From: Streptosporangiales bacterium
GTDB taxonomy: Bacteria > Actinomycetota > Actinomycetes > Streptosporangiales > Streptosporangiaceae
Direction: 5' to 3'
Length of the DNA stretch: 32,295 bases
NCBI GenBank assembly: GCA_009380095.1
Contig: WHSL01000045.1
Span: forward strand, 1-32,295
Shown here: one piece after another, positions 18,529 to 22,134 of the stretch
Layout: every line of letters starts with the position of its first letter
Position numbering within the stretch: the first letter of the stretch is position 1
Notes under the pieces: model-generated
Told to the model about the DNA's origin: nothing
The model's database searches: none
The model's input: only the letters and a program-made list of their open reading frames with translations
Made by a program: the position numbers and the translations under genes

Positions 18529-19446
18529 CTAGCGCGCCGCGCGGCCGATGCCCGCGAGGGCCGCCTCAAGCAACCGGAGGTGGCCCTCGTCCGCGGCGTA
18601 GCGGGCGAGGGCGCCGCACAAGAAGATCGCCAGCACTCGGGCGGCCGCCTCGCTCCCGGCCGTCACCTCTCCGTACGCCTCCAGCAGCGCCGCGCGCGCC
18701 GGGCCGGCGAAGCCGGAGTAGGCGAGCGAGAGGTCGAGCGCGGGGTCGCCGAGGCACAGGTCGATCCAGTCGATCACGCCGGTCGCGTGGCCGTCCTGGA
18801 CGAGCAGGTGACGGATGTGCAGGTCGCCGTGGCAGACCACGGAACCGTCCGGAGCACCCGACCGCTCGCCCGCGTCGAGCGCGTCCAGGACCGCAGGGTC
18901 AGGGGTCCAGAGCCCCTGCTCGGCGAGGGCGTCGAGGTCGGTGCGGGCGCGCGGGGCGCGTACGGCCGGGTCGCCGCGGCGCAGCGGGTCGTACGGCAGC
19001 CCCGCCCCGGCCTCCGCCGCGAGCGCGGGATCGTGCAGCGCGCGCAGGAACGCGCCGAGCTCCCGCGCGACCCGTACGTCCTGGGCCGCCGTGGCCGCCG
19101 GGGCCTCCGCCAGCTCGCGGCCGGGGATGATGCGGGCGCCCCAGAATGGCCACGGGAAGTCCTCGCCGGGCTCGCCGACGTGCTCCGGGACCGGGACGGC
19201 CAGCGGCAGCCGCGGCGCCAGCCGGGGCAGATACGCGATCTCCCGCCGCAGGCCGGGCAGCACCACCTCGCGGCGCGGGAACCGGAAGATCCATTCCCCG
19301 CCGACCAGGTGAACGGTGTTGTCCCAGCCGGTCGCCAGCGGCTCCACCGGCGCACCGCGCAGATCCGGGAACCTCGCCTCGATGAGCGCCGCCGCCTCGC
19401 CGGCTCCGACCGTCCGCTCGGCCCGCCACGCAGGTGTCCCGCTCAC
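18529..19446 (-). CDS. aminoglycoside-phosphotransferase-family kinase
   Basis: The 305-residue cytoplasmic protein has the APH/choline-kinase fold. WDNTVHLVGGEWIFRFPRR (41-59) forms the nucleotide-binding N-lobe. The catalytic loop is C205-H-G-D-L-H-I-R-H213-L-L and the metal-binding segment is GVIDWIDLCLGDPALDL (D226). His213 stands where classical enzymes have Asn (HGDLHxxN); this variant occurs in an actinobacterial subgroup. The natural substrate is unknown, and no resistance should be assumed from sequence alone. The GTG start at 19446 has no Shine-Dalgarno site, but TAGCCT sits 6 bp upstream, consistent with a leaderless transcript. It is divergent from the next gene with only 24 bp between start codons. 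Confidence 0.85.
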   Translation of the reverse strand: MSGTPAWRAERTVGAGEAAALIEARFPDLRGAPVEPLATGWDNTVHLVGGEWIFRFPRREVVLPGLRREIAYLPRLAPRLPLAVPVPEHVGEPGEDFPWPFWGARIIPGRELAEAPAATAAQDVRVARELGAFLRALHDPALAAEAGAGLPYDPLRRGDPAVRAPRARTDLDALAEQGLWTPDPAVLDALDAGERSGAPDGSVVCHGDLHIRHLLVQDGHATGVIDWIDLCLGDPALDLSLAYSGFAGPARAALLEAYGEVTAGSEAAARVLAIFLCGALARYAADEGHLRLLEAALAGIGRAAR

Positions 19447-20090: not shown

Positions 20091-20106
20091 CGCAGCGGGC
20101 CCCTGG

Positions 20107-20144
20107 AAAATCGTTTGAACGGTTGCGAGGGCGGCTCATAGCCT
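20107..20144 (+). promoter_or_regulatory. WhiB7-type promoter upstream of the erm remnant
   Basis: AAAAT (20107-20111) lies 3 bp before the -35 TTGAAC (20115-20120), and TAGCCT (20139-20144) is the -10 after an 18-bp spacer. The AT-rich block 3 bp upstream of TTG matches the WhiB7-dependent promoter motif known from mycobacteria (AAAATCGGTTG). Erm genes are known members of the WhiB7 regulon. Confidence 0.65.
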
Positions 20145-20151
20145 GGCCGGC

Positions 20152-20268
20152 ATGTGCGCAGTAACCAACGGCGGGATCTTCGTGGCCGCCCACGCCTGCG
20201 CCGTCGCCCTGCGACGGCCCCGCATGCGGCACCACGCCCTGGTCCCGCAGGTGAACTCCGGCGCCTAA
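20152..20268 (+). CDS. 38-codon upstream ORF in the erm leader
   Basis: ATG at 20152 to TAA at 20266-20268 encodes a 38-residue peptide starting MCAVTNGGIFVAAHACAVAL and ending PQVNSGA. The ATG is 7 bp after the predicted -10, so it would be translated from a leaderless mRNA. Short upstream ORFs are typical of erm genes and of WhiB7-controlled genes, where ribosome stalling or translation of the leader controls the downstream gene. No known stalling motif is recognised. The rest of the leader to 20456 holds hairpins but no other gene. Confidence 0.5.
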   Translation: MCAVTNGGIFVAAHACAVALRRPRMRHHALVPQVNSGA

Positions 20269-20456
20269 GCCCTGCCGGCACGCTCCGTGACGCGGCTCAG
20301 CCGCGACACGGTCTGGCGACCACGCACCGACGTCCGTCCGCGCGTGACGCGCCGAGCCGGCCGAACCATTGATCGCCGATCCCCTCCGCGGGTCCTGGGC
20401 CTTCGCACGCCCTCGACCCATCTCGCCCGGCCCGGTGCCGGGAGCGAAGGACGGCG
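20269..20456 (+). promoter_or_regulatory. structured erm leader region
   Basis: The 188 bp between the upstream ORF and the erm start contain CGCGG-CTCAG-CCGCG (20291-20305) and the palindrome GCGCGTGACGCGC (20340-20352). Both could form attenuator or RBS-sequestering structures. GAAGGA at 20446-20451 is the ribosome binding site of the erm remnant. Confidence 0.4.
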
Positions 20457-21067
20457 ATGTCATCGCGCCGCAAGCGCCTCGCGCTCTCCCAGAACTTCCT
20501 CGCCGACACCGGCGTGCTCCGGCTCATCGCACGGACCGCGACTGCCCGCGGGCCGGCCTCCGCGCGCCCTCCGCGCGAGCCGTTCGCCGTGGCGGGCAAC
20601 TTCCCGTACGCGGTGACCTCACGGATCGTGGACTGGTGCCTGACGGCCCGGTCCCTGACCTCCGCCACCCTCGTCACCCAGCTGGAGTACGCCCGCAAGC
20701 GGACCGGGGACTACGGCCGCTGGAGCAAGGTCACCGTGCTCAGCTGGCCGCGGTTCGGGTGGCGGCTGGCCGGCAGGATCGACCGCCGGGTGTTCCGCCC
20801 GTGCCCGCGGTCGATTCGGCGATCCTCCGGCTCGACCGGCGGAGCAGGCCGCTGCTGCCGGGGGAGGCCCTGCCCGCCTACCGCGACCTGGTGGAGCTCG
20901 GGTTCACCGGCCGCGGCGGCTCGCTGCACGCCTCGCTCCGCGCCCTGCACCCACGGCGACGGCTCGACACCGCGTTCCGCACCGCCGGCCTGGATCGGGA
21001 CATCCTTGTCGGCCACGTCCACCCCGGCCAATGGATCACCCTCTTCCTTCACCTCTACCGACCCTGA
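20457..21067 (+). pseudogene. erm-type 23S rRNA (adenine-N6) methyltransferase, deleted and frameshifted
   Basis: The start is typical of Erm enzymes (MSSRRKRLALSQNFLADTGV). After RLIARTA the sequence jumps, around 20541-20567, to PPREPFAVAGNFPYAVTSRI (the catalytic N-F-P-Y motif). Roughly 50-60 residues containing SAM-binding motifs I-III are missing. A second lesion, one deleted base near 20800, shifts the frame; the C-terminal part continues as VPAVDSAILRLDRR to HPGQWITLFLHLYRP, ending at 21067. An intact enzyme would dimethylate A2058 of 23S rRNA and give macrolide-lincosamide-streptogramin resistance; this copy should be inactive. The promoter, leader ORF, ribosome binding site and terminator are all still present. 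Confidence 0.85.
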
Positions 21068-21255: not shown

Positions 21256-22134
21256 ATGCGCGAGCTCGACCGGAGGGGTTTCCTGGCCAGAGCGGGCGGG
21301 CTGAGCCTGGCGGTGCCGCTGCTCGGCGTCGCCGCGTGCAGCCGTACCGAGGGCGGTACGGCCGCCGTGAGCACGCTGGAGCAGGTCAAGAAGAACGGAG
21401 TCGCACGGCTGGCGATCGCGAACGAGCCGCCGTACACCAAGATCAAGACGGACGGCTCGGTGACCGGCGCGTCGCCCGAGGTGGCCCGGGCGGTGCTGAA
21501 GCGGCTGGGCGTGCCGCAGGTCGAGGGCATCGTGACGCCGTACGACGCGATGATCCCCGGGCTGCTCGCCCGGCGCTGGGACCTCATCACCGCCGGCCTG
21601 TTCATGAAGAAGTCGCGCTGCGCCGAGGTGCTCTACTCCGACCCGGATGTGGTCTCCAGCGAGTCGCTGCTGGTGCCCAAGGGCAACCCGAAGAACCTGC
21701 TCAAGTACGGCGACATCAAGGCCGACAAGTCGATCAGCCTGATCGTGCTGAACGGCGGGTACGAGGACGGGCTCGCCAAGCAGGCCGGCATCCCCGGCGA
21801 CCAGCTCGTCCGGGTGAAGGACGCGCGCGACGCCATCGACGCGCTCAAGGCGGAGCGCGGGCACGCGTTCGCGCTGCCCACGCTGTCGCTCAACGACCTC
21901 GTCGGCAAGGACGATCCGCAGTTCGACATCACCGAGCCCATCCCGGACATCCGGCCGACCGGCGCCGGTGCGGCCTTCCACAAGCAGGACACGACGTTCC
22001 GCGACGCGTACAACAAGGCCTTCCGGGAGATCAAGAAGTCCGGCGAGTTCGCCGAGATCCTCAAGCCGTGGGGCTTCTCCGCGGAGGACGCGCAGCGCTA
22101 CACCGCCGACCAGCTCTGCCAGAACGAGGGCTGA
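21256..22134 (+). CDS. EhuB-like solute-binding lipoprotein (ABC importer, family 3)
   Basis: The 292-residue protein has a twin-arginine lipoprotein signal (DRRGFLARAGG, with LGVAAC and lipidated C28) and a periplasmic-binding-protein fold. Features include LEQVKKNGVARLAIANEPPY, GASPEVARAVLKRLGV, RWDLITAGLFMKKSRC and the C-terminal AFREIKKSGEFAEILKPWGF. It most resembles EhuB, which binds ectoine/hydroxyectoine, but the substrate is inferred only from this resemblance. GGGAGG lies 7 bp before the ATG at 21256; an ATG at 21241 is rejected because it precedes that site. The permease and ATPase genes normally beside ehuB are absent, so it is an orphan here. Confidence 0.82.
   Translation: MRELDRRGFLARAGGLSLAVPLLGVAACSRTEGGTAAVSTLEQVKKNGVARLAIANEPPYTKIKTDGSVTGASPEVARAVLKRLGVPQVEGIVTPYDAMIPGLLARRWDLITAGLFMKKSRCAEVLYSDPDVVSSESLLVPKGNPKNLLKYGDIKADKSISLIVLNGGYEDGLAKQAGIPGDQLVRVKDARDAIDALKAERGHAFALPTLSLNDLVGKDDPQFDITEPIPDIRPTGAGAAFHKQDTTFRDAYNKAFREIKKSGEFAEILKPWGFSAEDAQRYTADQLCQNEG

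Follow-up and report, generated by a model that had tools for sequence, protein, structure and literature searches.

The erm locus of this Streptosporangiales genome raises the question of why a gene that has lost essential parts of its enzyme should still be preceded by a promoter, a short ORF and a leader of the kind expected for antibiotic-inducible resistance, and whether this leader has been kept for another purpose. The locus lies in a stretch of 32,295 nucleotides (hereafter the window; contig C68) of a 6.09 Mb draft assembly in 413 contigs. Our preferred explanation, to which we assign a probability of about 0.86, is the recent decay of an inducible erm gene with a WhiB7 promoter and an Arg-X-Arg (R-X-R) leader peptide, the leader not having been kept for another purpose.

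The 5' part of the erm pseudogene (20457-20812, plus strand) retains the start, the QNFL motif and the catalytic-loop region, and the 3' part (20780-21067, plus strand) lies in another reading frame; both halves matched PF00398 in a profile search. Alignment with relatives revealed that about 55 residues, including the YEID and GDF stretches as well as the SAM-binding motif, are gone near 20560 and that the frame changes near 20800. The SAM block is present in essentially all the relatives among the 133 loci checked, where only two others failed the motif check: L044, which is truncated at the place examined, and L065, in which the pattern did not recognize the motif EPGAGYG. With RrnaAD homology but neither the SAM motif nor an open frame, the gene is a pseudogene of the Erm 23S rRNA dimethyltransferase family, and, as the original prediction had stated, the enzyme cannot work, to judge from its sequence. 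No second erm was found in the genome, the only other match (contig C181) being weak and reading like KsgA. It could be argued that erm is intact in the organism and that the deletion, the frameshift and the missing leader arms described below are assembly artefacts, the assembly being a very GC-rich draft of 413 contigs and the region having strong hairpins. In such a draft the frameshift could indeed be an assembly error, but this is less easily said of the two missing blocks. As two separate blocks and the frameshift would all need to be artefacts, and the flanking sequence is clean and homologous on both sides, we regard this explanation as very unlikely.

Two neighbours of the pseudogene deserve mention. 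An APH-family kinase adjoining it (18529-19446, minus strand) has a weak, below-cutoff similarity to the macrolide phosphotransferase Mph(A), and a solute-binding protein encoded at 21256-22131 scored above the NCBIfam cutoff for the ectoine-binding EhuB.

Upstream of the pseudogene, the plus strand at 20106-20154 reads GAAAAT-3 bp-TTGAAC-18 bp-TAGCCT-7 bp-ATG. The GAAAAT box (20106-20111) fits the consensus GAAAWY and is placed 3 bp 5' of the -35 hexamer TTGAAC (20115-20120), followed by a -10 hexamer, TAGCCT (20139-20144), of the form TAnnnT; Streptomyces WblC was reported to bind GAAAWY 3 nt 5' of the -35 (PMC7157823). When the genome was scanned with the pattern GAAAWY-N3-TTG-N16..22-TANNNT-N5..10-ATG, using the reversed pattern as a control, the window locus was the single match in 6.09 Mb and the control gave 0; a slightly tighter pattern matched in 63 of 121 genomes of the family, with reversed-control matches nearly all zero. 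Five Wbl proteins are encoded in the window genome and one of them is WhiB7 (L141, G000:C282), carrying EPWGVWGGE...KRPRGRPRK with the AT-hook RGRPRK. Its gene, on contig C282, is intact and has upstream a promoter of its own of the GAAAAT-N3-TTG type (GAAAAT-TTG-TTG...TAAGCT); this gene also has a long upstream leader. With a GAAAWY box, SigA-type -35 and -10 hexamers and WhiB7 in the same genome, the assignment of the window promoter as a putative WblC/WhiB7-dependent one holds. It appears to be intact, and its transcript may still be induced under drug stress.

The ATG opens a uORF of 38 codons (MCAVTNGGIFVAAHACAVALRRPRMRHHALVPQVNSGA; 20152-20268, plus strand) with homologues in relatives. 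An erm gene was detected in 183 of 343 genomes of the family (DNA E <= 1e-30), and we read 131 erm loci from the family, Streptomyces, Nocardia and others; the same promoter and a short uORF were present at 98 of them, with the ATG usually 7 bp past the -10. Among distinct related leaders this distance was exactly 7 bp in 66 of 89, a spacing at which the transcript would be expected to begin on the start codon or beside it, which implies that the uORF is probably leaderless. The window uORF holds RRPRMR at codons 21-26, within which R-P-R-M-R (codons 22-26; 20215-20229, plus strand) conforms to the R-X-R (+X+) macrolide arrest motif, and its peptide ...AVALRRPRMRHHALVPQ... aligns with ...AVAFRRPRERRPALGQP... 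of L006, from S. humicola, and ...AVDYRRPRGRRPALDLT... of L025. Arg-X-Arg, which causes arrest in ErmDL when erythromycin or telithromycin is present (PMC8298421), is conserved in the related uORFs, being found in 74 of 76 distinct peptides against a mean of 40 and a maximum of 52 in residue shuffles; the uORFs in this count were chosen without using the motif, a separate uORF scan having favoured R-X-R candidates. Judging by this homology, the window uORF is a member of the set of WhiB7-promoter R-X-R erm leaders. A comparison with relatives having intact erm had been proposed as a check on the original prediction, and the some 130 related erm loci compared here bear out its WhiB7-type promoter, which is also the sole exact match in a genome with an intact WhiB7 gene, its ATG 7 bp after the -10 and its 38-codon leaderless uORF; together with the WhiB7 gene they support its reading of the whole as an inducible resistance leader.

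In the relatives a segment of the uORF (A; GCCCTGG or GCTCTGG with its flanks) has its complement farther downstream (B; CCAGGGC with its flanks). When the duplex energy of A was tested freely along all the downstream sequence, large loops dominated and nothing could be learned, so an anchored pair test was used instead. Over 44 distinct combinations, A and B form 420 paired positions, compared with a mean of 404 (sd 3.6, maximum 416) in 5000 permutations in which the B segments were dealt out anew among the leaders, the relatedness of the sequences being ignored. The two segments covary, as uORFs with Ala-Leu-Asp (GGAC) go with GTCC in B, and the central U-A is replaced by C-G in L065, L075, L083 and L118. 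In 44 of 61 leaders segment A begins 15 nt after the X codon of R-X-R, and in 10 it begins 18 nt after it, a position that would fall just outside a ribosome stalled there. Two forms of leader were recognized. In the short one, B covers the Shine-Dalgarno by pairing; the long one has two extra arms, C (GGACGGGC) and D (GCCCGTCC), which 13 of the 14 leaders sorted as long possess. In L064 and L072 these arms carry a matched double change, GGACAGGC with GCCTGTCC. The long leaders align poorly from the uORF stop to B, and our claims leave that part aside. In a simple and crude folding calculation, the Shine-Dalgarno was easier to open with a stalled ribosome in 80% of 87 relatives.

These data are consistent with the following mechanism in the intact relatives and in the ancestor of the window locus. 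Ribosome stress would raise WhiB7, which would activate the promoter through the GAAAAT box, the -35 and the -10; the transcript would start at or next to the ATG, so that translation of the uORF would be leaderless. When a macrolide occupies the exit tunnel, ribosomes would stall at Arg-X-Arg; A, 15-18 nt beyond, would then lie just clear of the stalled ribosome and be available for pairing with B. Without that pairing, B of short leaders would hide the Shine-Dalgarno; in long leaders, presumably including that of the window's ancestor, A:B pairing would free C to pair with D, thereby exposing the Shine-Dalgarno.

How much of this switch is left in the window? Segment A (GCCCTGGTCC; 20236-20245, plus strand; codons Ala-Leu-Val) lies 18 nt past the X codon of R-P-R and pairs with segment B (GGTCCTGGGCC; 20391-20401, plus strand), with two U-U mismatches. 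The leader is of the long form, since ...CCTCGACCCATCTCG... and ...AGCGAAGGACGGCG... match L025 on either side of a junction at 20425-20426, the site where same-type relatives carry C and D; both arms are absent from the window, and relatives hold roughly 55 to 100 nt between the flanks matching L025. The junction is followed by a hairpin, CCCGGC-CCGGT-GCCGGG (20426-20442, plus strand), directly 5' of the erm Shine-Dalgarno GCGAAGGAC (20444-20452, plus strand), which can pair with CCTTCGC at 20400-20406. The predicted fold of the region is somewhat more stable than that of shuffled versions (z -2.34), and the crude folding calculation gave a change in Shine-Dalgarno exposure of -0.4 kcal/mol, that is, no gain. 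An Rfam search of the window returned no match. The original prediction of a retained structured leader therefore stood in part: A and B are present and the region is structured, but the C and D arms of the relatives have gone. Given the missing arms, the mismatched A:B helix and the lack of a computed gain, we read the window leader as probably damaged too.

A variant of this explanation accepts the death of erm but takes another view of the leader, which would have been a working three-segment switch, with B pairing directly to the Shine-Dalgarno, until erm broke, so that the gene alone was damaged. L006 of S. humicola offers a precedent, as it combines an RRPR uORF and B with a full-length erm and lacks the C and D arms; the absence of these arms is thus by itself no proof of a dead leader, a simpler switch being possible, and in the window CCTTCGC does face GCGAAGG. 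However, the sequences flanking the junction in the window (CATCTCG and AGCGAAGGACGGCG) both match the four-segment leader of L025, the A:B helix of the window has the two U-U mismatches, and no exposure gain was computed, and we consider this variant rather unlikely.

A separate matter, raised by the original prediction itself, is whether the leader or the peptide of 38 residues that it encodes took on a new role and was preserved for it once erm had died, for instance as a trans-acting leader RNA or a drug-sensing ribosome-buffering ORF. The promoter, the start codon, the R-P-R-M-R motif and segment A are all undamaged, as such a function would have it, but intact parts are equally expected after a recent loss, and the C and D arms are gone and no new ORF can clearly be assigned to the leader's control. 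Dead erm loci elsewhere also speak against it. Three were traced from promoter-pattern matches in family genomes without an erm match, and, since they were found through the promoter, its presence there proves nothing. L180 (G004:C52) has a whole leader, with a uORF ...YVIRPRSLPAQAR, and an erm with its middle deleted; L163 (G049:C235) keeps the promoter, a uORF that has lost its stop, and the B and C arms, with no erm; and in L164 (G101:C20) the promoter and the first uORF codons are fused to an erm fragment, most of the uORF being deleted. These loci show that erm is lost by deletion repeatedly and independently and that none of the leader's parts is kept in every case, and different remnants at three independently deleted loci are what decay predicts. 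The suggestion of another purpose was therefore not upheld, and we give it very little credence. Under recent decay, the window erm would have lost its SAM-binding block and frame and the leader its C and D arms, and the apparently intact promoter and uORF, whose retention we infer to reflect the recency of the loss, would perhaps still be transcribed under drug stress, controlling nothing useful.

For the window genome itself, these results imply an ordinary resistance gene that is decaying with its promoter still in place, and they caution against taking the presence of an inducible resistance leader as a sign that the resistance gene works. The comparison also points to joint control of erm, by WhiB7 and by a leaderless uORF that senses macrolides, in many environmental actinobacteria, and the intact and broken erm loci provide a ready set for testing this. 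We tentatively propose, at somewhat less than even odds, that the window holds a decayed example of a leader type widespread among actinobacteria, in which a WhiB7 promoter stands at a fixed spacing from a leaderless R-X-R uORF, the codons directly following the stall site double as part of the switching helix, and three- and four-segment forms occur. If this is true, such leaders would be two-layer drug sensors for chromosomal erm, with general stress read at the promoter and the macrolide at the uORF.

The same type of promoter was observed before other genes. L172 (G007:C2) and L165 (G120:C1) have WhiB7-type promoters and short Arg-X-Arg uORFs (MAMYGCTMNAGSIAVMRPRRV and MTMMFMVIRRARLRAV..., respectively) before rRNA-methyltransferase-like genes of other types. 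In L178 (G115:C23) a WhiB7-type promoter and an 18-codon ORF are shortly followed by an alanyl-tRNA synthetase-like gene, and in L177 (G103:C1:9667600-9669800) the promoter and a 7-codon uORF precede an ORF that seems to open like a glycosyltransferase and to continue as an oxidoreductase-like protein, perhaps again a fusion produced by deletion.

Each layer alone, the WhiB7 promoter and the R-X-R uORF, is already known, and we do not claim the arrangement as new; the two layers together were not found described as such in the literature searched, older Streptomyces work on ErmSV and ErmSF lying outside that search. ErmSV-like leaders of Streptomyces belong to macrolide-inducible erm genes with an R-X-R (+X+) leader peptide. 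The window leader resembles these and the ErmDL leader in its short Arg-X-Arg uORF, in the possible alternative helices downstream over the Shine-Dalgarno and in its erm target, and differs from them in its WhiB7 promoter, its apparently leaderless uORF, its dead erm and the absence of C:D arms. With the WblC/WhiB7 regulon of Mycobacterium and Streptomyces, which includes erm genes, it shares GAAAWY 3 nt 5' of the -35, a SigA-type -35/-10, a resistance gene downstream and WhiB7 in the genome. In that regulon, erm(37) of M. tuberculosis was described as an exception to the uORF control of erm genes (PMC4128351), whereas the WhiB7 and uORF layers are joined in the window leader. The leader of wblC/whiB7 itself, which acts by uORF-mediated attenuation, has the same type of promoter and a regulatory uORF, but the mycobacterial whiB7 uORF was described with a Shine-Dalgarno and a downstream terminator (PMC4128351), which means transcriptional control, and it is by this description, not by sequence, that we set it apart from the leader in the window.
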